Source: Giesbergeria sp.
GTDB taxonomy: Bacteria; Pseudomonadota; Gammaproteobacteria; Burkholderiales; Burkholderiaceae_C
Direction of reading: 5' to 3'
Assembly (NCBI GenBank): GCA_023150295.1
Contig: JAKLLE010000035.1
Location: 1-36,441 of the forward strand
Length of the DNA: 36,441 nt
Positions 2,015-30,530 of this stretch are shown one piece after another; within the stretch, counting starts at the first letter, position 1; every line of letters starts with the position of its first letter. The notes beneath the pieces were generated by a model. The model searched no databases and was not told the origin of the DNA. It saw nothing but the letters and a program-made list of their open reading frames with translations. The position numbers and the translations under genes were made by a program.

Positions 2015-2068
2015 GCTATGCTTTCCATAGCTGCTTGCGCCCACGGAAAGGGCGCTGCAGCCCAATTT
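2015..2068 (+). repeat. 54-bp dispersed repeat, copy A (intergenic)
   Basis: Layout GCTAT, 7 nt, ATAGCTGCTTGCGC, 10 nt, GGCGCTGCAGCCCAATTT. The first part can fold as GCTAT/ATAGC and the second as GCGC/GCGC. It sits between the Gly-rich-tail gene and the dehydratase gene. Four more copies of identical length are at 8178-8231, 22075-22128, 27831-27884 and 30124-30177. Confidence 0.8.
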
Positions 2069-2140
2069 CTTGCAAAAATCCTGGAGCGATCTAAGATGGT
2101 TGCCATCGGTACCAACGCCCCACACCGGGGCCCAGTCGCC

Positions 2141-3127
2141 ATGGAAAACCTGTTCGCTCCCGCGCCTCCCGCTCCCGCCGCCGTGCTGCAGGCGGCCGCC
2201 CGCCTCAAGGGCATGGCCCACCGCACGCCGGTGTTGCGTTCCAGCACCGCCGACGAGCGCCTGGGTGCACAGTTCTTCTTCAAGTGCGAGAACCTGCAGC
2301 GCACGGGTTCGTTCAAGTTCCGGGGCGCCTTCAACGCCCTGGCGCAGTTCAGCGACGACCAGCGCGAGCGCGGGGTCATCACCTTCTCGGCGGGCAACCA
2401 CGCCCAGGCCCTGGCACTGGCCGCACGGCTGCTGGACATGCCCGCACTGGTGCTCATGCCCGAAACCGCTTTGGCCTCCAAGATGGCCGCCACGCGCGAC
2501 TATGGCGCCCAGGTGCTCACCTACAACCCGCTGACCGAAGACCGCCAGGCCATCTGCCAACGCCTGGCGCTGGAGCGCGGCATGACCCTGGTGCCGCCCA
2601 GCGAGCACCCCGACGTGATTGCAGGCCAAGGCACCGCTGCCCTGGAACTGCTGGAGGAGGTGCCGCGCCTGGATCTGCTGCTGGTGCCCGTGGGCGGCGG
2701 GGGCCTTCTCGCGGGCAGCCTGCTGGCCGTGCAGGCGCAAGGCATGCCCTGCCGCGTGGTGGGTGTGGAGCCCGAGCATGCCAACGACGCCCAGCAATCG
2801 CTGCGCGCAGGGCAGATTGTGCAAATCCCGCTGCCGCGCAGCACCATTGCCGACGGCGCCCAGGCGCAGGCCCTGGGGCCGCTGACGTTCGGCCTGATCC
2901 GGCAGCATGCGCAAGACATCGTGACTGCCAGCGACCCGGACATGGTGCAGGCCATGCGCTTTTTTGCCGAGCGCATGAAGCAGGTGGTCGAGCCCACCGG
3001 AGCGCTGGCCTTTGCCGCCGCCCTGGCCGAATCTGCAGGGCTGGATCTGCGCGGCACCCGCGTGGGCGTGATCGTGAGCGGTGGCAACGTCGATTTGCCG
3101 CGCTACGCGCGCTTTCTGGCAGACTGA
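2141..3127 (+). CDS. PLP-dependent threonine/serine dehydratase
   Basis: Fold-type II PLP enzyme of 328 residues that should deaminate L-threonine or L-serine to the 2-oxo acid and ammonia in the cytoplasm. The PLP lysine lies in GSFKFRGAFNAL (about residue 55). TFSAGNHAQALA is the substrate-binding loop, VGGGGLLAG the glycine-rich phosphate loop and VSGGNVDL the C-terminal PLP-ring contact. There is no C-terminal ACT regulatory domain, so it resembles the short catabolic or biosynthetic-like form rather than feedback-controlled IlvA of about 500 residues. The ATG at 2141 fits the family start; an upstream in-frame ATG near 2096 would add 15 residues. A threo-3-hydroxyaspartate dehydratase or serine racemase activity cannot be excluded. 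Confidence 0.88.
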   Translation: MENLFAPAPPAPAAVLQAAARLKGMAHRTPVLRSSTADERLGAQFFFKCENLQRTGSFKFRGAFNALAQFSDDQRERGVITFSAGNHAQALALAARLLDMPALVLMPETALASKMAATRDYGAQVLTYNPLTEDRQAICQRLALERGMTLVPPSEHPDVIAGQGTAALELLEEVPRLDLLLVPVGGGGLLAGSLLAVQAQGMPCRVVGVEPEHANDAQQSLRAGQIVQIPLPRSTIADGAQAQALGPLTFGLIRQHAQDIVTASDPDMVQAMRFFAERMKQVVEPTGALAFAAALAESAGLDLRGTRVGVIVSGGNVDLPRYARFLAD

Positions 3128-3159
3128 CGGTTTATCGCATTTTGTAACGTCTGTTCCCC

Positions 3160-3798
<639 letters not shown>

Positions 3799-3840
3799 GC
3801 CCACCCGGCGCACTGCCTGGACGCAGCCCACGCACAAAAA

Positions 3841-3874
3841 AGCCGCTGCAGGGACTTGCATCCCTGCAGCGGCT
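3841..3874 (-). terminator. Rho-independent terminator after nirS (possibly also upp)
   Basis: Perfect 13-bp inverted repeat AGCCGCTGCAGGG ... CCCTGCAGCGGCT with an 8-nt loop. On the minus strand it is followed by a run of T (complement of CACAAAAAA just left of the stem), as expected for ending the nirS transcript. On the plus strand the following sequence is only moderately T-rich, so upp termination is less certain. Confidence 0.8.
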
Positions 3875-3927
3875 TGTGCTTTGGGCTGGGGCCACACCGG
3901 ATTCCCGGTACAGCCCCGCAACCCGCA

Positions 3928-5679
<1,752 letters not shown>

Positions 5680-5771
5680 TTAACCCCTCCCAGGGATTGC
5701 CCGCTGCGGGCTGCGACAACATGGTCCAGCGGGCGTTGAACTATTATTCCTTGATTGGGTAAGGGTTTTCT

Positions 5772-5785
5772 TTGATTCAGGACAA
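5772..5785. promoter_or_regulatory. Possible FNR/DNR-type box
   Basis: TTGATTCAGGACAA resembles the TTGAT-N4-ATCAA site of FNR/DNR/NNR regulators; the left half is perfect and the right half matches 3 of 5. It lies in the 231-bp divergent region, about 126 bp from the nirS start and 92 bp from the TonB receptor start. A second left half-site (TTGAT) is at 5751-5755. NirS genes are commonly under such control; the assignment here rests on the motif alone. Confidence 0.4.
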
Positions 5786-5877
5786 AGCAGAACTCGAAAT
5801 GCAACTTTGTGCTACACCGGTAACCCCAATAATCCCGCTGCAGACTGACGCTGCGCTTGCCACGCCCCACGATCCCC

Positions 5878-8175
5878 ATGAAACCCACCGATCCATTGTT
5901 GTTTGAACCACACACTGCCTCCCCTCGGTCGCTGCTGAGCCTGTCGGTCACATTGGCCTGCCTTCACATGGGCAGCGCCCTGGCGCAAGGCACAGCCCCC
6001 GCCCATACCAGCCTGCCTGAGATGGTGGTCAGTGGCTCGCGCCAGGAGCAGGCGGCAGACGATCTGCCGCTGTCCTACGACGTGATCAACGCTGCTGCAC
6101 TGAGCAACCAGCAAAGCCGCACGTTGCGCGAAGCGCTGCAAGACCTGCCCAACACCTCGGTCAAGCGCTCCCCCTCGCGCTTCACGGTGGGTGGAACCAC
6201 CGCCAGCGCCGGACGCGACGGTAACGTGGGCATCAACATCCGCGGCCTGGGTGGCAACCGGGTGCTGCTCATGGTTGACGGTGTGCGTATGCCGCGCAGC
6301 TACGCCTTCCGCACCACCACCTTCGACCGCGAATACCTCTCGCTCGAACTGCTCAAGCGCATCGAGGTGGTGCGTGGCCCGGCGTCGGCCCTGTACGGCT
6401 CGGACGGCATGGCGGGGCTGGTCAACTTCATCACGCACGAACCGGCCGATTTCCTGGCCGTTGGCAAGGGCGAAACGCCCAAGACCCTGGGTGGCCGCAT
6501 TGCGGCAGGCTGGAGCGGCGACGACAACGGCCACACCCTGGCTGGCACCGTGGCAGGCAAAGCCAGCGACAGCCTGCAATGGATGCTGACCGCCACCACC
6601 CGTGGCGCCCACGCCATGGACAACATGGGCACCAACGACGAGCCCAACACCAACCGCACCCGCCCCAACCCGCAGGACGACCGCGACAACGCCGTGCTCG
6701 GCAAGATCGTGCTGCGCCCCCATGCCACGCAGCGCCACGTGTTCACACTGGAGCATGTGCAGAAAAAGTCAGATGTGGATTTGCTTTCCAGCCGCACGCC
6801 CCTGCCCTTGCGCGGCACCCCGGCGCAAATCGCCGGTGCCATCGTCGACGAATACTCCTCGCGCTCCATGGAGCGCAACCGCCTGGCCTGGGACGCCCGG
6901 TTTGGCCTGGGTGCCGACTGGGCGGACCATGTGCGCACCGTCGTGGCCTACCAGGACGCGCAATCGCGCCAGGTGGGCACCAGCGTGCGCAACACCCTGC
7001 CGCTGCGTGTGCGCGACAACTCCTACGGCGAAAGCACCTGGCAGGCCGGCGTGCAGGCCGACAAGATCCTGCGCAGCGGTGGCTGGGCGCACAAGATCAC
7101 CTACGGGCTGGACCATGTGCGCAGCGACATCACCAACCTCTACACCGGCCTGGCCCCACTGCCGCCTGAGGTCTTCCCGCTCAAGCGCTTCCCCGACACG
7201 CGCGAGACCACCAGCGCGCTGTTTGTGCAGGACGAATCGGTGCACGGCCACTGGAGCCTGACGCCCGGCCTGCGCTTCGACCATTTTTCGCTCGACGTGA
7301 CCAGCCAGGCGGGCTTTTACCCACCGGCCAAGCAGCCAGGGCAATCGCTCTCGGGCTCGGCGCTGTCGCCCAAGATCGGCGTGCTGTACCGCGCCACGGA
7401 ACAGTGGAGCGTGTTCGGCCAGTACGCCGCAGGTTTTCGCGCCCCTGATGCAGGGCAGGTCAACGGCTACTACGAAAACGCGGCCGAGCAGGTCATCATC
7501 ATCCCCAACCCAGACCTCCGGCCCGAAAAGAGCCGCGGGGTGGAAGTGGGCGTACGCGGGCGCCTGAACCGCCTGAGCCTGGACGCCGCCGTGTTCGGCA
7601 GCCACTACTCCAACCTCATCATGGACACAGTGCTGATCCGTGGCACGGGCACCGCGGCGGACCCGCGCATCTTCCAGACCATCAACACCGAACGCGCGCG
7701 CATCACCGGCTTCGAGCTCAAGGGCCAGTACGACTGGGGCCGCGTAGCGGGCGGGCGCCTGGCCACCCCGTTCAGCTACGGCAAGGTGCACGGCGTGAAC
7801 CGCGCCACCGGCAAGCCCATCAACTCGGTAGACCCCGCCCAACTGGCGCTGGGCCTGCAGTACGACACGGCCGCCTGGGGCCTGCGCCTGGACATGCGCC
7901 ACCACGCCGCCAAAACGGCCAAGGACATCGACAGCACCTCTTCCGTCAAGCCGCCCAACACGCAGTTCACCGTTCCCTCGGCCACCACGCTGGATGTGTC
8001 GGCGCAATGGCGCCTGCGCAAGGATCTGCGCCTGAACCTGGCCGTGCACAACCTCACCAACCGCAAGTACTGGCTCTGGCCCGATGTGTATGGCCTGGCG
8101 GCATCGTCCAGCACCAACGACGCCTACACGCAGCCAGGGCGCAGCGTGCACCTTTCAATGGTCATGGATTTTTGA
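5878..8175 (+). CDS. TonB-dependent haem/haemoprotein receptor
   Basis: Outer-membrane receptor of 765 residues that should import haem or a related iron source with TonB energy. A signal peptide ends near GSALAQG; the TonB-box-like EMVVSGSR follows. The plug contains NIRGLGGNRVLLMVDGVR and IEVVRGPASALYGSDGMAG. The barrel carries GFRAP followed by NPDLRPEKS, the FRAP/NPNL pair typical of haem receptors (HmuR/HemR type). The final residue is Phe, as in most outer-membrane barrels. The start is the ATG at 5878 directly before the signal peptide; the longer TTG-started frame adds nothing recognisable. It is divergent from nirS, a haem enzyme, which fits a haem/iron link but does not prove one. 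Confidence 0.85.
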   Translation: MKPTDPLLFEPHTASPRSLLSLSVTLACLHMGSALAQGTAPAHTSLPEMVVSGSRQEQAADDLPLSYDVINAAALSNQQSRTLREALQDLPNTSVKRSPSRFTVGGTTASAGRDGNVGINIRGLGGNRVLLMVDGVRMPRSYAFRTTTFDREYLSLELLKRIEVVRGPASALYGSDGMAGLVNFITHEPADFLAVGKGETPKTLGGRIAAGWSGDDNGHTLAGTVAGKASDSLQWMLTATTRGAHAMDNMGTNDEPNTNRTRPNPQDDRDNAVLGKIVLRPHATQRHVFTLEHVQKKSDVDLLSSRTPLPLRGTPAQIAGAIVDEYSSRSMERNRLAWDARFGLGADWADHVRTVVAYQDAQSRQVGTSVRNTLPLRVRDNSYGESTWQAGVQADKILRSGGWAHKITYGLDHVRSDITNLYTGLAPLPPEVFPLKRFPDTRETTSALFVQDESVHGHWSLTPGLRFDHFSLDVTSQAGFYPPAKQPGQSLSGSALSPKIGVLYRATEQWSVFGQYAAGFRAPDAGQVNGYYENAAEQVIIIPNPDLRPEKSRGVEVGVRGRLNRLSLDAAVFGSHYSNLIMDTVLIRGTGTAADPRIFQTINTERARITGFELKGQYDWGRVAGGRLATPFSYGKVHGVNRATGKPINSVDPAQLALGLQYDTAAWGLRLDMRHHAAKTAKDIDSTSSVKPPNTQFTVPSATTLDVSAQWRLRKDLRLNLAVHNLTNRKYWLWPDVYGLAASSSTNDAYTQPGRSVHLSMVMDF

Positions 8176-8177
8176 TG

Positions 8178-8231
8178 AAATTGGCCTCCAGCGCCTATCC
8201 ATAAAGCGCAAGCAGCTACTATTTTTATAGC
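8178..8231 (-). repeat. 54-bp dispersed repeat, copy B (intergenic)
   Basis: On the minus strand it reads GCTAT, 7 nt, GTAGCTGCTTGCGC, 10 nt, GGCGCTGGAGGCCAATTT. It begins 3 nt after the stop codon of the TonB receptor and ends just before the bidirectional terminator. Confidence 0.8.
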
Positions 8232-8232
8232 A

Positions 8233-8268
8233 AAAGCCCCCGCAGGCCGTAAGACCTGCGGGGGCTTT
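8233..8268. terminator. Bidirectional rho-independent terminator
   Basis: Perfect 14-bp inverted repeat AAAGCCCCCGCAGG ... CCTGCGGGGGCTTT with an 8-nt loop. A/T-rich flanks on both sides suit termination of both the TonB receptor gene (plus) and the thiolase gene (minus). Confidence 0.85.
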
Positions 8269-8297
8269 GGTTGGGTCGCTGAGGGTTCGCTGGGCGC

Positions 8298-9473
8298 TTA
8301 CAGCACTTCAAACACGCCCGCAGCGCCCATGCCACCGCCGATGCACATGGTCACGCACACGCGCTTGGCGCCACGGCGCTTGCCTTCGATGAGGGCGTGG
8401 CCGGTGAGACGCTGGCCGCTCATGCCGAAGGGGTGGCCCACGGCGATGGCACCGCCGTTGACGTTGAGCTTGTCGGCAGGAATGCCCAGCTTGTCGCGGC
8501 AGTAGATCACCTGCACGGCGAAGGCTTCGTTCAGCTCCCACAGGTCGATGTCGTCCATCGTGAGACCCAGGCGCTTGAGCACCTTGGGGATGGCGAACAC
8601 GGGGCCGATGCCCATTTCGTCGGGCTCGCAACCGGCCACAGCAAAGCCGAGGAAACGGCCCAGGGGTTTGAGGCCCTTCTTGGCAGCCACATCTTCGTGC
8701 ATCACCACCACGGCGCCGGCGCCGTCGGACAGCTGGCTGGCGTTGCCGGCCGACACCAGACCGCCGGGCAGTGCAGAACGCAGGCCCTTGATGCCGTCAT
8801 AGGTCGTACCCGCGCGGATGCCTTCGTCCACGCTCACGGTCACTTCTTTGGTGGAGAGGCCCATGACCTTGTCGGCCACGCCCATGGTCACGGTGATGGG
8901 GGCGATTTCATCGGTGAACAGGCCCTTTTCCAGCGCGGCACTGGCTTTTTGCTGGCTGGCGGCGCCGTATTCGTCCATGGCTTCGCGGCTGATGTTGTAG
9001 CGTTTGGCGACCTGCTCGGCCGTTTGCAACATCGACCAGTACACCTCGGGCTTGTTCTTCATGAGCCAGGTTTCCTGCAGCATGTGCTGGTTCATCTCCT
9101 GCGCGGTGCAGGAGATGGTTTCCAGGCCGCCGGCCACATACACGTCACCTTCATTGGCGATGATGCGCTGCGCCGCCAGGGCAATGGTTTGCAGGCCGGA
9201 CGAACAGAAGCGGTTCACCGTCATGCCCGACACGGTGATGGGGCAACCGGCGCGCAGCGCAGCCTGGCGGGCGATGTTGGCGCCGCTGGCACCCTCGGGG
9301 GTGCCGCAGCCCATGATGACGTCGTCCACTTCGGCGGCTTCAATGCCCGCGCGCTGGATGGCGTGCTGAACCACGTGGCCGCCCAGGGTGGCGCCGTGGG
9401 TCATGTTGAAGGCACCCTTCCAGCTCTTGGTCAGGGGGGTGCGTGCGGTCGATACGATTACTGCGGAAGTCAT
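8298..9473 (-). CDS. Acetyl-CoA C-acyltransferase (thiolase)
   Basis: Cytoplasmic thiolase of 391 residues that should cleave 3-ketoacyl-CoA with CoA in the last step of beta-oxidation. The nucleophilic cysteine is in [11 protein letters not shown] (near residue 90). The C-terminal catalytic pair is in GHPFGMSG and [14 protein letters not shown]. The length is standard for the degradative FadA/PhaA type. It is 33 nt downstream of the multifunctional hydratase/dehydrogenase gene, giving the fadB-fadA-like order. Sequence alone does not separate a fatty-acid thiolase from a short-chain acetoacetyl-CoA thiolase, but the partner gene favours beta-oxidation. Confidence 0.92.
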
Positions 9474-9506
9474 GTGGTTTCCTTGTTCGGTGGTGTGGCT
9501 GCGCGC

Positions 9507-11606: not shown

Positions 11607-11869
11607 GCTGTTGTTCCTTGGAAAGTGGAAAAAGAACGGTCGTGCGATTTTGATTGTAGGGGCAGACCGCGCTTTGACCAGAGGGCCATGTCTCTATTGG
11701 GACAAATACGGGAGTTGGAAGTCCATTTCACACCAATGCCTCATCAACCTGTGTACCTGCAATACTGCCTTGACACCACCGCACGCGGCAGATCAAGTGG
11801 CCGCATACGGTCTGAACAGGCCTTCAACGGTCTGCGGCAACCCCGCGCCCAGAGTTGCCACACAGTCCA

Positions 11870-13786: not shown

Positions 13787-13841
13787 TGCAGTCCCCTGTG
13801 CGTGAATCGTGACGGAACTGCCCAGCCTTGCAGCACCAAGA

Positions 13842-14030
13842 TAAGCATCAGGCCGGTCTTCTGGCTTGGAGTCGTTTGCCCCGATCACACCTTCCCAGCT
13901 TGGCAGCCAGTGGCACACGTGGGGGGCATCGTCCTTACAGCGTTGGGCACGCGGCGGATTTGCACCGCCTTCCCGATTCTCCGGTGCGCCCCACCCCAGC
14001 GGATGGATCGCGCACCGGCACCTGACGGGG
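13842..14030 (-). ncRNA. Cobalamin riboswitch upstream of bluB-cobT
   Basis: Reading leftward, the conserved parts appear in order: TCGGGAAGGCGGTGCAAATC, the GCCC...CTGTAAGG segment, GTGCCACTGG, TGGGAAGG, and the B12 box AGCCAGAAGACCGGCC (complement of 13851-13866). Order and spacing fit the AdoCbl riboswitch class. It fills most of the 314-bp gap between the LysR gene and bluB, and ends about 55 nt before the bluB start. Ligand binding should lower bluB-cobT expression. Confidence 0.93.
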
Positions 14031-14100
14031 CGGGATGATAGCAGCCCATGCAGTACACGACCCTGTCAAGGCACGACCCTTGCCACCCATCTGCTTGGTG

Positions 14101-19525: not shown

Positions 19526-19576
19526 GGGCGCAACGATACCCGCTACGCGCAAGGTATCCACAAGCGTGGAGTACCT

Positions 19577-20226: not shown

Positions 20227-20240
20227 GGCAATGCCCCAGA

Positions 20241-20259: not shown

Positions 20260-21259
20260 ACCATGCCGATGCGTGATTTCGTACCGCCGCCCGCAAGGCC
20301 TCTTGCGCCTCGGGCGCCAGCACGCCCAGGCGCACCACGCCGGGCAAGCCGAACGAGGCGCAGTCGCGCAGCTTGATGCCTTGCGCGCGCAGGTGGCGCA
20401 GCAGCGCGGGCAGGTCGGCCACCGGGGGTCGTGCGCAAAAGTAGTTGGCCTGGCTGCCGGGCTGCACCTGCCAGCCCAGGGCAGTGCACAGGGCGATCTG
20501 GCGGTCTTTCCATTCGCGCAGGCGGGGCAGGCACTCGGCCAGCCATTGCTGGGTGGCGGGCTGCACCCAGGCCTGCAGCAGCGCCACGCCGTGTGCGCCG
20601 GTGGGCCACGAAGGGGCCAGGGCGGCCAGAGCGGCGGCGTCAGCATCGCCGCCCTGGGGGGCAATGGCATAGGCGGCGCGCACGCCCGTCAGGCCCAGGG
20701 CCTTGTTGGGCGTCCAGAGCTGCCAGCAGGTGGGCGGTGGTGGCGCGGGGTGCGCGTGCAGGCGCAGCGGCTGGTAGGCGCAGTCGAGCACGCGCAGGGT
20801 CTGGGCCGGATCGCCTGCCGCTGGCCACGCGGCCAGCGCCGCGTCGGCCTGGCCCAGGGGGCTGGAGGGCTCGCAGGCCCAGTGCAGCCCTGCCGTGGAA
20901 TGGGGCTCAGTGTGCACGGCCAGGCTCCGGGCGCGTGCAGCCTGGGCGTAGTCGCCATAGCCATGCGGGGGCACGGCCACGGCGCGCACGCCGCGCTGTG
21001 CGGCCAGTGCGGTGATGCGGTGGATGAATTCACTGGCACTGCCCGCCAGCACGATGCGCGCAGCCTCCACGCCATGGAAGGCGGCCAGTTGCGCGCGCAA
21101 GTCGGTGTAGGCGGGGTCGGGGTAGCGCGTGGCGTCGGCCTGTTGCACTGCGGCCAGCGCGGCGGGGCACGGGCCGCAGGCGTTGCTGTTGGTGGAAAAG
21201 TCGTGCGGCGCGGCGCCCTGCGCGTCGGTGCCGCCGTGCACGGCTTGCAGGTCAGCCAT
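20258..21259 (-). CDS. cobC: Threonine-phosphate decarboxylase-like PLP enzyme
   Basis: Fold-type I PLP enzyme of 333 residues. By family and context it should supply (R)-1-amino-2-propanol phosphate by decarboxylating threonine phosphate for the nucleotide-loop arm. The N-terminus has HDFSTNSNACGPCP, the family opening that usually reads DFSxNxNPxGP. DPAYTDLRAQLAAFHGV follows, and the PLP lysine lies in WTPNKALGLTGVRAAYA. The start codon lies inside the end of cbiB (8-bp overlap), so translation is probably coupled. (Named cobD in Salmonella.) A general aminotransferase is possible by fold, but the position argues for the corrinoid role. Confidence 0.9.
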   Translation of the reverse strand: MADLQAVHGGTDAQGAAPHDFSTNSNACGPCPAALAAVQQADATRYPDPAYTDLRAQLAAFHGVEAARIVLAGSASEFIHRITALAAQRGVRAVAVPPHGYGDYAQAARARSLAVHTEPHSTAGLHWACEPSSPLGQADAALAAWPAAGDPAQTLRVLDCAYQPLRLHAHPAPPPPTCWQLWTPNKALGLTGVRAAYAIAPQGGDADAAALAALAPSWPTGAHGVALLQAWVQPATQQWLAECLPRLREWKDRQIALCTALGWQVQPGSQANYFCARPPVADLPALLRHLRAQGIKLRDCASFGLPGVVRLGVLAPEAQEALRAAVRNHASAW

Positions 21260-22337
21260 ACCAACCCCCCATAGCGCAGCCCAGCACCAGGCCCAGTACG
21301 GCCAGCACCACCAGGCGCTGGACCATGCGGCCCGCCAGGCGCCGGGCGCGGCGTGCGTCCAGCGGCGTGGGGCTGCGGCCTGCGCTGTGCAGGCGGTACA
21401 CGCCGGGTTTGGTCAGGCGCACGTTCAGCGCCAACGCCATGGCGGCCATGGGCCAGCCGCTGTTGGGCGAGTCGGTCTTGCGCGCCTCGCGCAGCAGGGC
21501 AGACAGGCGCTGGGCCGGTGCAGGCAGCACCAGCAGCAGTGCGGTGATGCGCGCGGGCAGCCAGGAGAGCACGTCGTCGGCCCGCGCTGCCCATTTGCCT
21601 GCCCAGTGCCAGTAGCGCCCGCCGCGCATGCCACGGTAGCCCCACATGGCGTCGGCGGTGTTGGCCATGCGGTAGAGCGCGGCGCCAGGCAGGCCCGCCA
21701 CAGCGAACCAGAACAGCGGTGCCACGACCGAGTCATTGAGGTTTTCGGCCAGCGATTCGATGGCGCTTTCGCGCACCTCGCTGGCACTGAGCTGCGCCAC
21801 GTCGCGGCTGACCAGGAAGGACAGGCGCTCGCGCCCGGCCTCCAGCGACTGGTCCAGCGCTGCGTTCACCGCGCGCACCTCCTGCACCAAAAAGCTGTAG
21901 GACAACAGCGGCTTGAGCAGCGCGCCCAGCAGCAGCGCCGCCATCAGCAGGCGCAGCGTGGAAATGACGACGGAGGTTTCACCCAGCGCCAGCCCCGGCA
22001 CATCGACGACCGCCGTGCACACCGTGATGGGCGCCCCCCACACCCCCAGCACCAGCGCCTGGAGCACGGCAGATGCTATAAAAACAATAGCTGCCAGCGC
22101 ACACCAGGCAAGCGCTCCAAGCCAAAATTGCTTGGAGCTTTGTGCATTCGGCGCGCTGGGGGCAATCCGCTCCCCCAGCAGCTGAAGGGCCGATCCCATC
22201 CACACCACGGGGTGCCAGCGCAAGGGCGGCTCGCCCCACAGGCGGTCCGCCGCCAGCGCCACCAGCACGGCCAGCGCCAGCAGCACGGCGCCCTGCCCTG
22301 CATGGGCGGCCAAGGGATGAAGCCAGTGCCAGTGCAT
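21252..22337 (-). CDS. cbiB: Adenosylcobinamide-phosphate synthase, with embedded repeat
   Basis: Inner-membrane enzyme of 361 residues that joins adenosylcobyric acid to the aminopropanol arm. Family marks: ALAADRLWGEPPLRWHPVVW near the N-terminus, SRDVAQLSASEVRESAIESL, AENLNDSVVAPLFWFAVAGL and MANTADAMWGYRG. Codons for about residues 70-87 (segment FWLGALAW...VFIA) come from 54-bp repeat copy C at 22075-22128 on the opposite strand, so part of an N-terminal membrane segment is repeat-encoded. The gene starts 9 nt after cobO and overlaps cobC by 8 bp. (Named cobD in the Pseudomonas denitrificans scheme.). Confidence 0.93.
   Translation of the reverse strand: MHWHWLHPLAAHAGQGAVLLALAVLVALAADRLWGEPPLRWHPVVWMGSALQLLGERIAPSAPNAQSSKQFWLGALAWCALAAIVFIASAVLQALVLGVWGAPITVCTAVVDVPGLALGETSVVISTLRLLMAALLLGALLKPLLSYSFLVQEVRAVNAALDQSLEAGRERLSFLVSRDVAQLSASEVRESAIESLAENLNDSVVAPLFWFAVAGLPGAALYRMANTADAMWGYRGMRGGRYWHWAGKWAARADDVLSWLPARITALLLVLPAPAQRLSALLREARKTDSPNSGWPMAAMALALNVRLTKPGVYRLHSAGRSPTPLDARRARRLAGRMVQRLVVLAVLGLVLGCAMGGWYG
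22075..22128 (+). repeat. 54-bp dispersed repeat, copy C (inside cbiB)
   Basis: Layout GCTAT, 7 nt, ATAGCTGCCAGCGC, 10 nt, AGCGCTCCAAGCCAAAAT. It lies antisense to cbiB and is translated there as 18 in-frame codons rich in hydrophobic residues. The stem AGCGC/GCGCT is perfect. Confidence 0.75.
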
Positions 22338-22346
22338 GGTGGGGGC

Positions 22347-22916: not shown

Positions 22917-22936
22917 GGCAAAGGTCTTTCAAAAAA

Positions 22937-25900
22937 TCAGTGGGTGGCCACCGCCAGCACCAGGCCGCGCTGGCGCACCCACTGGCGCAGCGCACCGGCC
23001 AGCACCACGGCCAGCAGGCCCAGCAGCACCAGCAGCTGCGCCTTGCGCTCTGCAGCGCCGGGGTGGGTGGATGCTGGCGGCTGCACCGCTTGCAGCAGCA
23101 TACCGGTCACCGGCTGCGCCTTGCCAGACACCACCGGGGGCGCCGCCGGGGGGGCGGCCTGGGACACAGACGGCAACGGCGGTGATGCTGGCGCACGCGC
23201 AGGTGCCTCCAGCCCGGCGCCGCGCTCTGGGCGCAGCGCCTGGCGCGGCTCCAGCGCTGGGCCCGCACCGGTTTGCTGCCGCACCCATTGGCGCACCTCG
23301 CGCAGTTCCAGGGCCAGGGGAGCGGCCTGGGTCAGTTCGGCATAGGTGCGGGCCAGTTCGGTGCGCGTGGCGGCGTCTGGCTGCCAATGGCCCAGGCGGC
23401 TGGCCTGCACCAGGCGTTCCAGCGCCTGCGCGTAGGCCTGCGGGTGCTGGCGCAGCCACTGGGGGGTGCCCAGTTGGTGGCGGTCTTTCACCAGCACGTC
23501 AAAAAAACTCTGCCAGTGGTCGGGCCGGATGGTGTCGGGCGCCACGGCCTGCCAACCCCAGGCGAACTGCACGGCCTTGAGTACCTGCAGCGTGCCCGCG
23601 TAGCCCTCGGCCTGCTGGGCCTGCAACCAGCCGGGGTGCAGGTAGCGGGACTGCATCTCGCGGGCGATGTTGCGCTGCGCGCTTTCGGTGTGCACCTCGC
23701 TGCTGTCGTGCAGCTCGCTCACGTACAGCGCCAGCGCATCCTTCTTTCCCGCCGCCCTGGCGGCCGCTGCCAGGCCGCCCAGGTACTGGAAGGGGTCGTC
23801 CGAGCTGACCATGGCATACAGATGCGAGCTGCGCGAGAGCACCGCCGCATCGGCCTGGCGCAGGTGCGCGCCCAGTGCCTGCACCGCATGGGTGCGGGCC
23901 ACGCCGGGTACAGGCTCGCCGTGGAGGAAGGGCTGGCTCATGCGCTGCAGAAACATCTCGCCCAGCCGCGGGTCGTCGCGGCGCAGGCGGCCGTCCTGCA
24001 CGGCGTCGGACAGGCCGGTGCCGTAGTCGCCTTCCTGGTTGCCAAAGCTGCGGGCCTGCGCCAGGGCCAGGGCCTGGGCGGCGGGCACGCCCGCGCGGCG
24101 CAGCGCACTGTGCACCGCATCCGTGTTGCGCGCCACGGCGTTGGCGGGCTCGGCGCCTGCGGCCAGGGCCACGGCCTGGTCGATCAGCGCCATGAGGGCC
24201 GGAAACTGGTCGCGGTAGGAGCCGGTAACGCTGAGCAGCACATCGACCCGCTCGCGGCCCAGTTGCGCCTGCGGGATCAGTTCCACCCGCTGCGGGCGGC
24301 CGCTGCTGTCCCACACTGGCCGCACCCCCAGGGCCACCAGTGCCTGCGCTTCCATCACGCCCTGGTGGCGCAGTGTTTCCCCGGCCCAGAGCGACAGCGC
24401 CAGGCGCTGCGGCATGCTGCCGCCATGGGCAGCACGCCAGTCTTGCAGCCACTGCTGGAACAGACGCTGCGCCACTTCGTAGGCCTGGCGCGTGGGCAGG
24501 CGGCTGGGGTCCAGGCCGGTGAGGTTGCGGCCCGTGGGCAGGCTGTCGGGGTTGCGGATCGGGTCGCCCCCATAGGCGGCGGTGAGGTAGCGCCCGTCCA
24601 GCGCAGCCAGCAGGCCCGGGATTTCGCCCTCGGTGGCCAGCAGGCGCTCCAGTTCCTGCGCACGCAGGGCCAGCGCGTGCAGCGCGGCAGTGTCTGTGGG
24701 TTGGCGTGCCGCGCGGTTGGGCACAAAGTCCTCGCCACGCAGCGCACTGGCGCCGTCGCCTGCGGGCGCCGAGGCAGGCTGCGCCGGGCGCAGGTCGAGG
24801 CGGCTGGCGGCGTCGGCGTCGCGCAGCGCCACGTCCAGCCAGCGCGCCGGCCGCGCCGTGGCCACGGTGCGGTGGTCGATGAGAAAGGCCTCGTCAATGT
24901 CCTCTCCCAGCGCCTCGATCAGGGGCTGGCGCAGCGCCTGCAGAATGGTCTGGCGCCTGCGCGCCTGGCTGGGCACCTCGCCCAGCACGGCCAGGCCCTG
25001 CGGCTGGCTGCTTTGCGCCAGGCGATCCAGGTAGGGGTGGAGCTGCTCCAGGTACCCCTCGAAGTCCCGCGCAATCGCATCGGCAGTCCAGCCCAGGTCG
25101 CGGTGCAGCTGGTGCTCCACAAACTGCGCGATCAGGCGCCGCTCCAGCGCCTGGCGCGTGGGGCCTGCATCCACGGTTTCCCACTCGTGCATCAGCTCGT
25201 GCATGTGGGCCATGCGGGCATTGAAGCCCGCCGGGGCAAACGCAGGCGTGCGGTGGCTGACCAGCACCGCGCGGCCGCGCCGCTTGGCGGTCAGGGCCTC
25301 GCCCAGGTTGTCCACGATATAGGGGTACACCACCGGAATGTGGCCCGCCGCTGCGCCCAGCGGCAACCACACGTCGTCCCACACATCAGGGCTGCGGGCC
25401 TTGCCGCTGGCCCATTCCTGCGTGCCATGGGTGCCAAAGTGCAGCAGCGCATCGGCCTGCCCCGCCCACAGGTACACGGCCAGGTAGTGGTGCGACAGCG
25501 GTGCCTTGCTTTTGTGCATGAAGGGGTTCTGGCCCAGGCGCAGGGTTTCCTCGCGCGGGGGCTGGGGCAGCACCGCGAGCGTACCCACCCGCATGCGCGG
25601 AATGACGAAGACCGGCACCCCTTGCCAATCCAGCAAGTAGCGGCTGCGCTCGGGCGGGCCCCAGTAGGCCTGGATGCGGGTGCGCACGTCTTGCGGCAAG
25701 GCGTCAAAGAACTGGCGGTAGCGCGCCAGGGGCAGCGCCTCGGCGCGGTCTTGCTCCAGCAGGCTGCGCAGCGCGGCGTCGGGGTAGTAGGCCGCAAGCA
25801 GGGGCTGCAGGCCCGCGATCCAGTCGCCCTCGGGCACCTCCTGGGTGGAGTAGCCCGCCTGCGCCAGCGCGCCCGATACCCGCTGCAGGCTGCGCGGCAC

Positions 25901-27079
25901 GTTCAGAAACGAAGCGCCGAAGTTGCTGCCCCCCGGGGGGTAGTTGTAGACCATGGCCACCAGCGCACGCTGCGCCCTGGGGCGCTCTTGCAAGGCCAGC
26001 AGGCGCTGCACGCGGCCCACCACGGCATGGGCCTGGCGGTCGATGAGCACCGTGCGCCGCCCCTGCTCGGCCGTGGCCGTGACCAGCACCGGGTCAACCG
26101 CCCCCGCGCCCTCGGGCTGGGCCAGGTAGTAGGGCACATCGGACAGGGGCAGGCCCATGGCGCTGTGCGCCCAGTCGGCCTCGGTGCCGCTGCGCCAGGG
26201 CTGCGTGGCCAGCAGCGGCACGCCCCAGCGGGCCAGCAGGGGCTGCAGGGCCGCTGGCTGGCTGACCAGCTGGTGCAGCACCAGTGCCCGGGGGTGGGCG
26301 CTGCCATCGGCGTTTCCCAGCAGGGCCTGCAGACCGGGGGTGTCGAGTTGCTGGCCAAACACGGCATAGGCCCACAGGCCCTGGTGCGCAAACATCCGCA
26401 GCCAGGCGTCGAGCCAGGCGGTCTCGCCGTTGACGAAATGGTGGCGGTGCACAAGCACAGCCACGGCAGGCTGGCCCTGCCCCTTGGACTGGGTGGCCTG
26501 CCACGCCGCCATGGCGCGCGCATCGCCCAAGATGCCGGGTGCATCGGGGTGGTACAGGCCACGCGCGGGCCAGGGGGCGGGCTCGGGCAGCGCAGGGGGC
26601 GGCGCCCCCTGCTGCCAGGCCTGTGCCAGTTGCCAGGCGTGGCGCAGGTTGGCCTGGCCCCCGGCCTGCAGGTAGGCCGCCACGCGCTGCGCCATGCTGG
26701 GCGCTGCGGGCAGCACGCCAGGGCCTGCAGGCACCCACACCACACGGGCGTGGGGCGCCGCCGCCAGCAGGGGCTCCAGCACGCGCTGCAGGCGCGCCTG
26801 CACGGTGGCGTGGGGCATGTCCACCCACACCTGGTCGGCCTGGGCCAGGGCCGCGCGCCAGTGCTGGCGCTGCGGGCCTTCGGGCTCGGCCGGGCCTTGC
26901 AGGGGCCATTGCAGGTGCTGCACCTGCCAGCCCAGGCGCCGGCCCTCGCTTTCGACCTGCGCCGTGCGCGCCGCCGGGGTGATGTCTGCCGTCACCCACA
27001 GCAGGCGGCCCGCTGCCTGGGCAGCGCCGCTGCACACCAGCACGCACAGGGCCAGGCACCAGCGCATCAGGATCGGCAT
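22937..27079 (-). CDS. cobN: CobN-like chelatase subunit, exported and membrane-anchored form
   Basis: Very large protein of 1380 residues in the CobN/BchH/ChlH family, whose cytoplasmic members bind a tetrapyrrole during metal insertion. Family marks: VYNYPPGGSNFGASFLNVP (about residue 376), FGTHGTQEWASGK (G549-W556), YPYIVDNLGEALTAKRRGRA and RNTDAVHSALRRAG. Unlike classical CobN it starts with a signal peptide (MPILMRWCLALCVLVCSGAA, cleavage near AQA) and ends with a proline-rich linker, one hydrophobic helix (QLLVLLGLLAVVLAGAL) and a short basic tail. This points to a periplasmic body tied to the inner membrane. ATG 27079 is chosen because it opens the signal peptide, 10 nt after btuD. No cobS/cobT-type or ChlI/ChlD partner is present here. 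Chelation, dechelation or corrin trafficking are all possible. Confidence 0.88.
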   Translation of the reverse strand: MPILMRWCLALCVLVCSGAAQAAGRLLWVTADITPAARTAQVESEGRRLGWQVQHLQWPLQGPAEPEGPQRQHWRAALAQADQVWVDMPHATVQARLQRVLEPLLAAAPHARVVWVPAGPGVLPAAPSMAQRVAAYLQAGGQANLRHAWQLAQAWQQGAPPPALPEPAPWPARGLYHPDAPGILGDARAMAAWQATQSKGQGQPAVAVLVHRHHFVNGETAWLDAWLRMFAHQGLWAYAVFGQQLDTPGLQALLGNADGSAHPRALVLHQLVSQPAALQPLLARWGVPLLATQPWRSGTEADWAHSAMGLPLSDVPYYLAQPEGAGAVDPVLVTATAEQGRRTVLIDRQAHAVVGRVQRLLALQERPRAQRALVAMVYNYPPGGSNFGASFLNVPRSLQRVSGALAQAGYSTQEVPEGDWIAGLQPLLAAYYPDAALRSLLEQDRAEALPLARYRQFFDALPQDVRTRIQAYWGPPERSRYLLDWQGVPVFVIPRMRVGTLAVLPQPPREETLRLGQNPFMHKSKAPLSHHYLAVYLWAGQADALLHFGTHGTQEWASGKARSPDVWDDVWLPLGAAAGHIPVVYPYIVDNLGEALTAKRRGRAVLVSHRTPAFAPAGFNARMAHMHELMHEWETVDAGPTRQALERRLIAQFVEHQLHRDLGWTADAIARDFEGYLEQLHPYLDRLAQSSQPQGLAVLGEVPSQARRRQTILQALRQPLIEALGEDIDEAFLIDHRTVATARPARWLDVALRDADAASRLDLRPAQPASAPAGDGASALRGEDFVPNRAARQPTDTAALHALALRAQELERLLATEGEIPGLLAALDGRYLTAAYGGDPIRNPDSLPTGRNLTGLDPSRLPTRQAYEVAQRLFQQWLQDWRAAHGGSMPQRLALSLWAGETLRHQGVMEAQALVALGVRPVWDSSGRPQRVELIPQAQLGRERVDVLLSVTGSYRDQFPALMALIDQAVALAAGAEPANAVARNTDAVHSALRRAGVPAAQALALAQARSFGNQEGDYGTGLSDAVQDGRLRRDDPRLGEMFLQRMSQPFLHGEPVPGVARTHAVQALGAHLRQADAAVLSRSSHLYAMVSSDDPFQYLGGLAAAARAAGKKDALALYVSELHDSSEVHTESAQRNIAREMQSRYLHPGWLQAQQAEGYAGTLQVLKAVQFAWGWQAVAPDTIRPDHWQSFFDVLVKDRHQLGTPQWLRQHPQAYAQALERLVQASRLGHWQPDAATRTELARTYAELTQAAPLALELREVRQWVRQQTGAGPALEPRQALRPERGAGLEAPARAPASPPLPSVSQAAPPAAPPVVSGKAQPVTGMLLQAVQPPASTHPGAAERKAQLLVLLGLLAVVLAGALRQWVRQRGLVLAVATH

Positions 27080-27089
27080 AGGCACGGCT

Positions 27090-27890
27090 TCAGAGCGCGG
27101 GGGCACGGGTAGCCAACACCGGCAGCGCCAGCCACTGCTCGGCCACGCTGTGGATGGTGATGCGCTCGTCAAACACCTGCTCCAGCGCGCGGTGCGTGGC
27201 GGCATGCTGCGCAGCACCGTGGTGGCGCAGGCGGCCCTGGGCCAGCACGGCCACGTCGTCGGCCTGCAGCGCCATGGAGAGTTCGTGCAGCACGCTGACC
27301 ACGGTGCAGCCGTGCGCCACCAGGTCGCGCACCAGTTGCAGCCAGTCAGCCTGGTGCGGGGGGTCGAGGTTGGCCAGGGGTTCGTCCATGAGCAGCACCT
27401 GGGCCTGCACGGCCAGCAGGCGCGCCAGCAGCACGCGCTGGCGCTCGCCGCCCGAGAGCTGGCCCAGCGGCCGCGCACGCCAGTCCCAGGCCTGGGTGCT
27501 GCGCAGGGCCTGTTCGACGGCGGCGTGGTCGGCGGCGCTGGGCGGCTGCATCCAGCCCTGGTGCGGCAGGCGGCCCAGCATGGCGACGTCGTACACGGTC
27601 AGGTCGTCGGCGGCGGCTTCGTTCTGGCCCAGCCAGGCCAGGTGCTGGGCGCGCTCGCGCCGGGGCCAGGCGTGCAGGTCGCGCCCGTGCAGCAGCACCT
27701 GCCCGCTGCCCACCGGCAGCAGGCCCGCCAGCACCCGCAGCAGCGTGGACTTGCCCGCGCCATTGGGGCCGACGATGCTGGTCCAGCGCCCCGCCGCCAG
27801 CGCCAGCGTGACGCCGTGGAGTATGGGGTGTTTTCCGATTCCAGCGCTTATCTGTTGGGCGCTGATAGCTATCAATTCAGTAGCAATCAC
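27090..27890 (-). CDS. btuD: Corrinoid ABC transporter, ATP-binding subunit
   Basis: ATPase of 266 residues that powers BtuC-mediated import. Walker A GPNGAGKST, Q-loop GQNEAA, signature LSGGERQRV, Walker B VLLMDEPLANLD and the H-loop in SVLHELSM are all intact. The start is GTG 27890, overlapping the btuC stop as GTGA, with AGGGGA 6 nt upstream. Starting at the third codon, 18 codons (27884-27831) are the 54-bp repeat copy E, so the N-terminal strand is repeat-derived; the Walker domain begins after it. It precedes cobN by 10 nt. Confidence 0.92.
   Translation of the reverse strand: MIATELIAISAQQISAGIGKHPILHGVTLALAAGRWTSIVGPNGAGKSTLLRVLAGLLPVGSGQVLLHGRDLHAWPRRERAQHLAWLGQNEAAADDLTVYDVAMLGRLPHQGWMQPPSAADHAAVEQALRSTQAWDWRARPLGQLSGGERQRVLLARLLAVQAQVLLMDEPLANLDPPHQADWLQLVRDLVAHGCTVVSVLHELSMALQADDVAVLAQGRLRHHGAAQHAATHRALEQVFDERITIHSVAEQWLALPVLATRAPAL
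27831..27884 (-). repeat. 54-bp dispersed repeat, copy E (5' end of btuD)
   Basis: On the minus strand: GCTAC, 7 nt, ATAGCTATCAGCGC, 10 nt, AGCGCTGGAATCGGAAAA. It is the most diverged of the five copies in the middle but keeps the exact length and both stems (AGCGC/GCGCT perfect). It starts on a codon boundary two codons after the btuD GTG and is read in sense. Confidence 0.68.
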
Positions 27891-28996
27891 AGCAATCCCC
27901 TGGTGGCCGTCTTGCGGTGCATGAGCCACAGCAGGTAGCCCCCGCCGAGCACGGCGGTGAGCACGCCCACGGGCAGCTCCTGCGGCGCCAGCAGGCCGCG
28001 CGCCAGCAGGTCGGCGCCCGCCAGCAGCGCGCCGCCCATCAGGCTGGCCAGCAGCATGAGGCGGCCGTGCGTCACGTTCACGGCGGCGCGCACCAGGTGC
28101 GGCGCGGCCAGGCCGACAAAGGCAATCAGCCCGGTCTGCGCCACCGCCGTGCCGGTGGCCAGCGCCAGCACGGCCACCAGCGCGGCGCGCAGCGGTGGCA
28201 GCGGCAGGCCCAGGCTTTGCGCGGTGGATTCGCCCAGCGCCAGCGCATCGAGCACGCGCGACAGCCCCCAGGCCGACGCCAGGCAGGGCAGCCACACCGC
28301 CAGCATAAGCAGGCAGGACGTCCAGCCGACAAAGCCCGTGGAGCCCAGCAAAAAGGCCTGCATGGCCTGCAGCGAGTCGGGCGACATGAGCAAAATCAGC
28401 GAGGTGCACGCTCCCAGCACCACACCCACCACCACGCCTGCCAGCAACAGGCGCAGCGTGTGCTGCACGCCGCGCGCCAGCGCCAGCGTGAGCAGCACGG
28501 CCAGCACCGCGCCCGCAAAGGCCGCGCCCGTGAGCCCCAGGCGCACCAGCCAGTGGCTGGAATACACCGACACCGCCATGGCCGCGCTGGCCCCGCCCAC
28601 CATGCCCGCGCCGCCGCCCATCAGCGCCAGCACGGTGGCCACGCCCAGCGATGCGCCCGAGGCACTGCCCAGCAGGTACGGGTCGGCCAGCGGGTTGCGG
28701 AACAAGCCCTGCGCCACGGCGCCTGCCAGGCCCAGCAGCGCCCCGGCGGCCCAGGCCCCCAGGGTGCGCGGCAGGCGGATGTCCCAGACGATCTGCTGCG
28801 CCATGGCGCGTTCGGCGGCGTCGCCCTGCCCGCCCCACAGCAGGGGCCAGAGGTTCTCCAGCCCGGTGCTGCCCACGCCCGTGCCCAGCAGCACCAGCAG
28901 CACACCCAGCAGTGCCAGCAGCACGGCCAGCCCGTGCGCCCAGCCGGGGCTGCGTGCGGTGGAAGCGGGGGTGCCCAGGGCCATGGTGGTGCTCAT
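27887..28996 (-). CDS. btuC: Corrinoid ABC transporter, permease subunit
   Basis: Inner-membrane FecCD-family permease of 369 residues with about ten membrane helices. Family marks: WDIRLPRTLGAWAAGALLGL, GLFRNPLADPYLLGSASGAS, and GLIAFVGLAAPHLVRAAV, the coupling loop that contacts the ATPase. The start ATG 28996 overlaps the btuF stop as ATGA, and the stop overlaps the btuD start as GTGA. With BtuF and BtuD it forms the importer fed by BtuB across the outer membrane. Confidence 0.94.
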   Translation of the reverse strand: MSTTMALGTPASTARSPGWAHGLAVLLALLGVLLVLLGTGVGSTGLENLWPLLWGGQGDAAERAMAQQIVWDIRLPRTLGAWAAGALLGLAGAVAQGLFRNPLADPYLLGSASGASLGVATVLALMGGGAGMVGGASAAMAVSVYSSHWLVRLGLTGAAFAGAVLAVLLTLALARGVQHTLRLLLAGVVVGVVLGACTSLILLMSPDSLQAMQAFLLGSTGFVGWTSCLLMLAVWLPCLASAWGLSRVLDALALGESTAQSLGLPLPPLRAALVAVLALATGTAVAQTGLIAFVGLAAPHLVRAAVNVTHGRLMLLASLMGGALLAGADLLARGLLAPQELPVGVLTAVLGGGYLLWLMHRKTATRGLL

Positions 28997-29919
28997 TGCG
29001 CGCCTGCCCGCTGTGCCTTGGTGGGTGCACTGCCCGCATGGCGTTCCAGGCAGGCGGCCATCAGGCGCGCGGCCTCGGCCATGCGCGGGCCGGGGCGGAT
29101 GAGCACGTCGGACTCCTCGGGCGTGAACACGCACAGGCGCTGCCCGCGCAGCGCGCGCATCTGGCCCCAGCCGGGGCGCGCGGCCAGACCCTCGGCGCTG
29201 CGCGCGCCGACCATGATGAGGTCGGGGTCGGCGCGCACCACGAATTCGGGGTTGAGCTTGGGGAAGGGCCCCAACGCATCCGGCAGGATGTTGCGCGCGC
29301 CCAGGCGCGTGAGCGTTTCGCCTATGAAGGAGCCCGGCCCGGCACCAAACGGGCCGGGGTTGACCTCGAAATACACGCGCGCACCGCGCGCCTGCGGGCT
29401 GAGCGACTGCGCCGCCGCCTGCACACCCGCATCGGTGGCGCGCCACACGCGCTGCGCATCGGGCACACCCAGCAACTGGCCGACCTTGCCCAGCACGCGC
29501 TGCACGTCGGCGTGGGTCTTGGGCTCCAGCGCGACCACGGGAATGCCCAGCGATTCGAGCCGCGCCGCCGCGCGCGAGGAGGTGGCCATGAGCACCACGT
29601 CGGGCCGCAGCGCGACGACGGCCTCGATGTTCGGGTCCAGCCCGCCGCCTACCTGGGGGAGCTTGCGCACGCTCTCGGGCCAGTTGGTGTAGCGGTCCAC
29701 GCCCACCAGGCGCTGGCACTGGTCGAGCGCGCACACGGTTTCGGCCAGCGAGGGCAGCAGGCTCACGATGCGTTGCGGTGCGCGCGGCAACTGCACCTCG
29801 CGCCCCCGGTCGTCGGTGAGGCGCACGCCCTGCGCGCGCGCCGTGCCCCACATCAGCAGCAGCAGCGCCAGCAGCACGGCCACCACGATGAGGATGCGCT
29901 TGATGGGGGTGGGTTTCAT
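28993..29919 (-). CDS. btuF: Periplasmic corrinoid-binding protein
   Basis: Class III solute-binding protein of 308 residues that delivers corrinoids to BtuCD. An N-terminal hydrophobic signal (ILIVVAVLLALLLLMWGTA) may be a cleaved signal or an anchor. Then RIVSLLPSLAETVCALDQ, VGVDRYTNWPESVRKLPQVG and PDVVLMATS match the BtuF/FecB type. The start ATG 29919 overlaps the cobU stop (ATGA) and the stop overlaps the btuC start. Haem or siderophore binding is possible by fold; the operon and riboswitch indicate corrinoids. Confidence 0.92.
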   Translation of the reverse strand: MKPTPIKRILIVVAVLLALLLLMWGTARAQGVRLTDDRGREVQLPRAPQRIVSLLPSLAETVCALDQCQRLVGVDRYTNWPESVRKLPQVGGGLDPNIEAVVALRPDVVLMATSSRAAARLESLGIPVVALEPKTHADVQRVLGKVGQLLGVPDAQRVWRATDAGVQAAAQSLSPQARGARVYFEVNPGPFGAGPGSFIGETLTRLGARNILPDALGPFPKLNPEFVVRADPDLIMVGARSAEGLAARPGWGQMRALRGQRLCVFTPEESDVLIRPGPRMAEAARLMAACLERHAGSAPTKAQRAGAQ

Positions 29920-30530
29920 GGGGCGTGTTCTTTCAGGGTGGGCGCTTTCAGGGTCAGCGGCAGCCCGGCTGCCATGAGGGTGACGCGCTGGCACACCTGC
30001 GCCACCTGCTGGTTGAGCTGGCCCAGCACATCGACGAAGGCGCGCACCTCGCGCCCCATCGGGATCACCCCCAGGCCGATTTCGTTGCCCACCAGAACAA
30101 CGGGCCCGGGGGCTCGCTCGATTGCTATCAAAAACATAGCTGCTTGCGCTTGCCAGTTGTGCGTTAGAGCCCTATTTTGTTCAAAATCCATGGACTCCAC
30201 CCCTGCGGGCATGATCCAGTTCGTGAGCCACAGCGTGAGGCAGTCCACCACCAGCAGGGTGTGCGCCTGGCTATGGAGAGCGATGGCGCCAGCCAGGTCG
30301 CGCGGCTCCTCCAGCGTGGCCAGGCCAGGCACGCGCTCGGCGCGGTCGCGCTGGTGGCGCGCGATGCGCGCGCGCATCTCGTCGTCCCAGGGCTCGGCGG
30401 TGGCGATGAGCAGCGCGCGGTGCTGTGGCGAGCGCGCCAGCCAGTCGCGTGCAAGCAGCTCGGCGCGGCGCGACTTGCCGCTTTTCTGCCCACCCAGGAT
30501 GAGTTCGCTGCGCGCAATGCCGAGGCTCAT
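29916..30530 (-). CDS. cobU: Adenosylcobinamide kinase/guanylyltransferase, with embedded repeat
   Basis: Bifunctional enzyme of 204 residues that phosphorylates adenosylcobinamide and then adds GMP to give adenosylcobinamide-GDP. Family marks: ELILGGQKSGKSRRAE (P-loop), ATAEPWDDEMRARIARHQRD, VDCLTLWLTNW and VVLVGNEIGLGVIPMGREVR. A stretch of 18 codons in the middle (segment NRALTHNW...FLIA) is the 54-bp repeat copy D at 30124-30177 read antisense. It replaces the usual variable helix before the GPVVLV strand and leaves all recognised motifs intact. ATG 30530 overlaps the cobB stop by 4 nt. (Named cobP in the Pseudomonas denitrificans scheme.). Confidence 0.94.
   Translation of the reverse strand: MSLGIARSELILGGQKSGKSRRAELLARDWLARSPQHRALLIATAEPWDDEMRARIARHQRDRAERVPGLATLEEPRDLAGAIALHSQAHTLLVVDCLTLWLTNWIMPAGVESMDFEQNRALTHNWQAQAAMFLIAIERAPGPVVLVGNEIGLGVIPMGREVRAFVDVLGQLNQQVAQVCQRVTLMAAGLPLTLKAPTLKEHAP
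30124..30177 (+). repeat. 54-bp dispersed repeat, copy D (inside cobU)
   Basis: Layout GCTAT, 7 nt, ATAGCTGCTTGCGC, 10 nt, TGCGTTAGAGCCCTATTT. It is antisense to cobU and translated as in-frame codons. The central 14 nt are identical to copy A. Confidence 0.78.

Follow-up and report, generated by a model that had tools for sequence, protein, structure and literature searches.

A high-copy bipartite repeat of Giesbergeria and other Comamonadaceae: a putative DNA recognition motif retained letter by letter

What maintains a 54-bp repeat that occurs five times, at exactly equal length, in a single contig of Giesbergeria sp. (GCA_023150295.1, JAKLLE010000035.1, positions 1 to 36,441; the window is this whole stretch of 36,441 nucleotides)? 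The original prediction, made from the sequence alone, had seen a dispersed repeat with two hairpins and filed it with the repetitive extragenic palindromes (REP), miniature inverted-repeat transposable elements (MITE) or Rickettsia palindromic elements (RPE). A different picture emerges here. At most of the orthologous places compared the repeat is retained letter by letter. From these sequence comparisons we infer that it is a recognition motif of double-stranded DNA which is kept in place position by position and would be read by a protein.

Coordinates, strands, equal length and layout had been given correctly for all five copies. They are listed with the motif positions matched, with the bit scores of a model whose 35 source copies include these five, and with gene positions from a simple gene finder written for this analysis.

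Copy 1, 2015..2068, plus strand: between the co-directional genes 1131-1997 and 2096-3127; 17/17 motif positions, 62.6 bits.
Copy 2, 8178..8231, minus strand: between convergent genes, 2 nt past the stop codon of gene 5968-8175; 17/17, 79.2 bits.
Copy 3, 22075..22128, plus strand: within the CbiB/CobD gene 21252-22286 (minus strand; PF03186), antisense to the gene; 17/17, 48.9 bits.
Copy 4, 27831..27884, minus strand: at the very start of the ABC-transporter gene 27090-27890 (minus strand; PF00005); 17/17, 45.1 bits.
Copy 5, 30124..30177, plus strand: within the CobU gene 29916-30530 (minus strand; PF02283), where it reads ...DFEQNRALTHNWQAQAAMFLIA...; 17/17, 69.6 bits.

The hosts of copies 3, 4 and 5 are predicted genes, i.e., two cobalamin-synthesis genes and the adjoining ABC-transporter gene. 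All five copies match the 26-base core GCTAYN7RTAGCTN4GCGC with zero mismatches; dinucleotide shuffles of the window contain on average 0.01 such matches even when one mismatch is allowed. The copies are thus no product of chance, as had been claimed. Two details need revision. The sequence GCTGCTTGCGC, proposed as the common part, is exact in three of the five copies, and columns 31 to 34 vary in other species. The equal length of 54 bp stands, and conservation extends about 10 bases beyond it, to ...ATTTNATTCAAAAT.

The window genome comprises 3.69 Mb in 142 contigs. The model finds at least 150 matches in it, a lower bound, as 150 of 2117 first-look candidates were scored. This excludes that the repeat is confined to the five copies. 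The length is exactly 80 bases at 148 of the 150 scored places; the other two measure 79 and 82. Pattern counts agree that this is a dispersed, high-copy family of constant length: the strict core GCTAYN7RTAGCTGCTTGCGC occurs 57 times (reversed control 0), GCTAYN7RTAGCTRN3GCGC at 226 places (reversed pattern 0) and GCTAYN7RTAGCTR 275 times, a few palindromic sites being counted twice (reversed control 18). In 151 kb, consisting of the window, contig C60 and part of contig C102, the threshold of 15/17 motif positions is reached at 20 places (reversed control 1) and that of 16/17 at 19 (0 in the control). Extrapolated from these 151 kb, the genome would hold about 465-490 copies.

In an alignment of 90 distinct copies conservation covers about 66 bases, with the consensus WTT-GCTAT-NAWWWTN-ATAGCT-GCTT-GCGC-TT(N)7RR-GCGC-TNNAGSC-MNATTT-NATTCAAAAT. 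Part of the seeds came from a search which required GCTTGCGC, and columns 31-34 therefore appear over-conserved in this set. Twenty copies from each of three other genera, chosen by a pattern that fixes the core, have the same core and variable columns 31-34. The motif is accordingly described as a bipartite GCTAY-N2-W3-N2-RTAGCT-N4-GCGC-N11-GC followed by an A/T-rich tail; both strands carry it, and the copies number in the hundreds.

How far does it extend? In a sample of the GTDB family 43 of 150 genomes match GCTAYN7RTAGCTRN3GCGC, 31 of them at least 10 times and 12 between 1 and 9 times (controls at most 3). Named carriers include Acidovorax, Comamonas granuli, Diaphorobacter, Extensimonas and Giesbergeria, hence the term Comamonadaceae is used. 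The strict core is absent from all 24 genomes sampled from other families of the order. Within a genus the picture is patchy. Two genomes of one genus (G063, G180) have 76 and 0 matches, respectively. In the genus of the window, strict-core counts run from 0 to 57, graded and not strictly all-or-none. Next to the 20 places at 15/17 or better in 151 kb of the window genome, 80 kb of relative G023 contain 12, and 160 kb each of relatives G002 and G005 contain zero; the model agrees. With one copy as query, a plasmid search returned one weak match and a search of phage records none. In viral contigs 70 stretches match vs 63 for the reversed pattern, which is near chance level.

The copies are retained at their sites. 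Relative G003 is about 91% identical to the window over the first 11.7 kb. It has copies 1, 2 and 3 at the same places, the 54-base core of copy 3 being identical, and copy 5 is in its cobU. Copy 1 is also at its place in G023 and degenerate in G015. Copy 2 follows the same gene in G003, G017, G024, G023, G015 and G013, and not in G004. In an anchor test eight copies (window copies 1-3 and five in contig C102) were traced by seeking the motif beyond the alignable neighbour, independently of the model. Out of 50 copy-by-relative sites, 38 keep at least 15/17 positions and 42 at least 13; with the two closest relatives set aside, the latter threshold is reached at 32 of 40. Shuffles of these regions never exceed 14/17. 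In these numbers one element shared by sites b and c is counted twice in five relatives, as are two misses in G014; the score of 16 for window copy 2 in G013 stems from a moved right-hand block, the left-hand site scoring 14; and the miss of copy e in G015 is due to the edge of the fetched piece, the model matching there at 35.2 bits (L170).

The resolution of this retention is evident from 24 diverged orthologous copies. Identity to the copy of the window genome is 0.79-0.96 in their motif blocks, 0.44-0.61 in the outer parts of the element, 0.36-0.44 in the spacers and 0.24-0.29 in the flanks, which are saturated. The rows of this comparison are model hits and lean to retention; G003 and G023 are excluded, two rows of a length other than 80 were removed, and the assignment of G014 for copy a is uncertain. 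Because the interleaved spacers have diverged and conversion of whole tracts would not spare them, the force presumably acts on single positions.

Does it act on a folded structure? The original prediction had reported compensating stem changes. There are none; copy 4 has a C.A mismatch in stem 1. Across the 90 copies 83.3% of the stem cells pair vs 84.0% with shuffled partners. In 242 copies preselected as GCTAY...RTAGCT, the variable pair of stem 1 is TA 175, TG 30, CA 30 and CG 7 times (Fisher p 0.47), C.A mispairs occurring at chance frequency. Mutual information ranks loop positions highest, not stem pairs. A covariance interpretation was tried and set aside: the structured model served as a detector, and its base pairs gain nothing from covariation. 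Selection on a hairpin is thus not borne out, as covariation is absent, pairing is at shuffle level and the half-sites are independent. The independent behaviour of the two GCTAY half-sites is what a DNA dyad contacted by a protein dimer would show, and the left part of the repeat would be such a dyad, two GCTAY half-sites around an A/T core.

Some copies lie inside genes. All 16 intragenic copies with at least 16/17 positions are in one reading frame, A-I-x-x-I-A; the count left out one out-of-register model match (L141, 7/17). Identified hosts are cobU, cbiB, the ABC-transporter gene, nadE, dxr, lpxB and thiL, further an enoyl-CoA hydratase (ECH), a FolM-like short-chain dehydrogenase/reductase (SDR) and a methyltransferase of the YccW/RlmI type. 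Compared with solved homologues, Dxr, LpxB and the YccW/RlmI-type protein have 0 excess residues at the element, the FolM-like SDR and NadE about 3. A full-length insertion, for which 18-22 codons are expected, was found in none of the 8 copies compared out of the 16. In cobU at least 14/17 positions are present at the place of copy 5 in 16 of 20 genes of the genus, own gene included. The CobU helix which bears the left half is present ungapped in G002 and G005, where the sampled DNA has no repeat. On these alignments the simplest reading is that intragenic copies arose by substitution in place; a step-by-step gain of the motif was not observed in the comparisons made.

With respect to genes, 52 of the 90 copies are in co-directional gaps, 16 in convergent and 5 in divergent ones, and 17 inside predicted genes. 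In co-directional gaps 31 copies have the orientation of the genes and 21 the opposite one, no clear bias. Some tandem gaps consist of little beyond the element and a ribosome site. In G023, a genome of three contigs, 149 best-scored copies on the main contig are evenly spread from origin to terminus (Kolmogorov-Smirnov p 0.37); these are the best 150 of 2159 candidates, one being on another contig, with the origin set by dnaA and the terminus taken as opposite. Orientation relative to the fork is not clear (85/149, p 0.10), and the spacing is slightly clustered (coefficient of variation 1.22 vs 0.85-1.15).

Some neighbourhoods deserve a record of their own. Synteny ends at copy 2 in several relatives, and in G013 both of the separated gene 3' ends bear a copy, one of them degenerate. 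A terminator-like hairpin abuts copy 2 at window 8232-8270; a strong one follows copy a of contig C102 (L110, about 4155-4190) in the window genome and most aligned relatives. A 22-bp inverted repeat (AGGGCCTGTTCACACTATTTTT...) lies a few bases past a copy in this contig (L110, about 8486-8539); between its arms G023 carries about 214 extra bp, like a remnant of a MITE or insertion sequence. At L110:8427-10026 of the window genome a 1.5-kb gene block lies between two copies of the same orientation. Of the relatives without the block, G024, G013, G016, G004 and G017 have one copy at the junction and G014 has none that is recognisable. It looks as if a gene gain or loss had used the repeats.

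Has the repeat been seen before? In the open-licence literature searched we found no description of the whole element and no named family, in agreement with the original prediction; a word search of two REP/HUH papers for the relevant genera gave no mention, and passages on Rhodoferax yielded nothing either. Two spaced motifs were listed in 2017 as potential novel motif pairs, with no explanation in the section on them (PMC5217627): GCTTAT(N)5AAGCG of Acidovorax ebreus with 114 copies (44 convergent, 4 divergent, 59 co-oriented) and ATAGCT(N)22CAAAAG of Polaromonas naphthalenivorans with 125. The former fits the GCGCTTAT...ATAAGCGC part of the repeat, the latter ATAGCT and the region around a GCGCAAAA variant. 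Judged by their letters and positions, both look like parts of this repeat. They belong to the same bacterial group and are mostly intergenic, and the A. ebreus pair is in few divergent gaps; the whole element, its wide spread, the pointwise constraint and the coding copies are absent from that section (PMC5217627). The Betaproteobacterial repeat element, common to Bordetella and some Comamonadaceae, was set aside. According to the passages describing it (PMC3110155) it is longer (about 90 bp), GC-rich (69% GC in Bordetella) and sometimes tandem; the distinction is by description, not by letters.

Which process could keep such a motif? Uptake sequences are short motifs that accumulate in less constrained DNA by point mutation and uptake bias, a molecular drive (PMC1939737). 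They show intragenic orientation and gene-end biases and number hundreds to thousands per genome (PMC2346458). The repeat resembles the uptake sequences of Pasteurellaceae and Neisseriaceae in its hundreds of constant copies on both strands in many related species and in coding copies with a frame or orientation bias. Strong over-representation in the own genome and in related species, by which uptake sequences are judged, is found. Verminephrobacter eiseniae, Acidovorax temperans and A. facilis are naturally transformable. In V. eiseniae transformation needs type IV pili, and foreign DNA inhibits it with a saturating effect, as selective binding would give; A. temperans accepted conspecific DNA alone (PMC4212676). 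Uptake sequences are discussed in that work, and its passages on them do not assign one to these bacteria.

Pointwise maintenance, the lack of a clear orientation, even spread, patchy presence among species and coding copies in one frame together led us to propose, tentatively, that the repeat works as a signal of the DNA-uptake type. This analogy was chosen because uptake sequences show that combination in part and because transformability with selectivity has been reported (PMC4212676). Incoming DNA with the motif would be preferentially taken up and recombined, and alleles matching the motif would replace those that do not. Copies would be built and kept where the sequence can change, i.e., in short gaps after stop codons and in tolerant helices, and no transposition would be involved. 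That this is a third, independently evolved lineage of uptake signals, in which a type IV pilus receptor reads a long bipartite dyad, is a more doubtful proposition.

Several observations weigh against an uptake signal maintained in this manner. The motif is much longer than known uptake sequences (a bipartite dyad of 54-66 bp vs about 9-12 bp). Its density is low, 20 in 151 kb, compared with almost 1,500 per genome in Neisseria (PMC2346458). It is strongly intergenic, more so than uptake sequences, and 22 of 47 GCTAY ends fall within -1 to +5 nt of a stop codon, a position that suits a gene-end function equally. DNA of A. defluvii or A. delafieldii failed to transform A. temperans, and the two donor species themselves yielded zero transformants (PMC4212676). 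The genome records named A. temperans, A. defluvii and A. delafieldii all carry the motif, so a shared signal alone does not explain the specificity of A. temperans; these records are partly from other strains, that of A. defluvii carries a contamination flag, and the failure may also stem from divergence. The opposite-strand control of the anchor test reaches at least 13/17 at 15 of 50 sites, which makes 13/17 a weak threshold, and at least 15 at 2 sites (one element counted twice). One coding 15/17 match is in another frame (L107:4471), and the reversed control of the same 151 kb also has one. The excess at the element is 7 residues in ThiL, 10 in ECH and 14 in CobU, and for these three insertion followed by loss may apply. 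Finally, six viral stretches hold two matches and none do in the control; a minority of viral contigs may have true copies.

On present evidence it is as likely that the repeat is a chromosomal protein-binding site, each site being under selection. The putative ligand could be a nucleoid organiser or a factor for supercoil domains, gene ends or roadblocks. The same pointwise constraint, the dyad of independent half-sites with an A/T core and the even chromosomal spread would suit such a site. Where species of the genus lack the motif, they may have lost the cognate protein. Gaps after stop codons are often filled by a copy; the 151 kb have no copy in the 16 divergent gaps, 5 in the 15 convergent ones and 8 in the gaps of 92 co-directional gene pairs. 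On the other side, at least 17 fixed positions at hundreds of sites, also in enzymes, need strong selection per site, and a strong terminator would not fit into tandem gaps that consist of little beyond the element and a ribosome site. We know of no such chromosome-binding protein, which counts against this possibility.

The other explanations are much weaker. That the repeat is an ancient non-autonomous mobile element (REP/REPIN or MITE), which a transposase once spread and which is now vertically inherited, is improbable. The high copy number, the intergenic preference and the palindromic halves do resemble REP/REPIN sequences, and RTAG precedes the palindrome as in REPs. The window genome has one Y1_Tnp protein that is REP-transposase-like (68 bits vs an NCBIfam cut-off of 80). 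This protein, akin to the REP-associated tyrosine transposases (RAYT) and encoded at L031:1126-1824 on the minus strand, reads RYH at the place of the HxH motif, which we take to be the usual one of RAYTs; possibly it is inactive or repurposed. Its 3.3-kb locus contains no match to the repeat, and 21 Y1_Tnp loci of RAYT and IS200 type yielded no convincing copy (best E 0.037). G003 has 48 strict-core copies and zero Y1_Tnp matches, whereas G002 and G005 have Y1_Tnp genes and zero core copies, all of these being draft genomes, 99% complete. Hence presence of the repeat does not follow RAYT, and no convincing copies flank these loci. A clean empty site was found at none of 8 loci; the surroundings of missing copies are too diverged to show a junction, and the sites are mostly old and shared. 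Conservation of motif letters without the interleaved spacers likewise speaks against mobility, and in distinction to REP/REPIN-RAYT systems the repeat has no pairing constraint and a single core consensus in the four genera aligned. Filing it as REP, MITE or RPE is not supported, considering the missing link to RAYT, the lack of full-length insertions among the 8 intragenic copies compared and the pointwise conservation at orthologous sites.

A structured RNA element, i.e., a terminator, an mRNA stabiliser or a small RNA, is very unlikely. It would agree with the frequent position after stop codons. On either strand the folding of the copies is somewhat better than that of shuffles (mean z -1.7 and -1.5), an effect that a palindromic sequence alone would give. 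Apart from the absent covariation, C36 is kept in 96% of the orthologs and its pairing partner G52 in 50%, a clear orientation to genes is missing, and Rfam at gathering scores has zero matches at the repeat positions. Elsewhere in the window Rfam recognizes two cobalamin riboswitches (13834-14040 and 33864-34103, minus strand) beside the cobalamin gene cluster. Least probable of all is an in-frame coding insertion like the RPEs, whose copies inside genes use one reading frame as do the 16 of 16 here, since the excess of 0 to 14 residues in the 8 proteins compared falls short of the 18-22 expected.

What do these data mean for Comamonadaceae? A motif that holds 17 positions fixed across hundreds of sites and dozens of genera of the family sample, housekeeping enzymes included, must be actively kept. 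If it is an uptake signal, a third family would be available for studying biased DNA uptake, and the selectivity already reported could be tested directly; a signal of a third lineage would be the basis of the selective transformation described in Verminephrobacter and Acidovorax. Should the motif instead be a protein-binding site, a new abundant chromosome-binding protein is to be found. Either way, the motif pairs of 2017 (PMC5217627) would gain one common frame.

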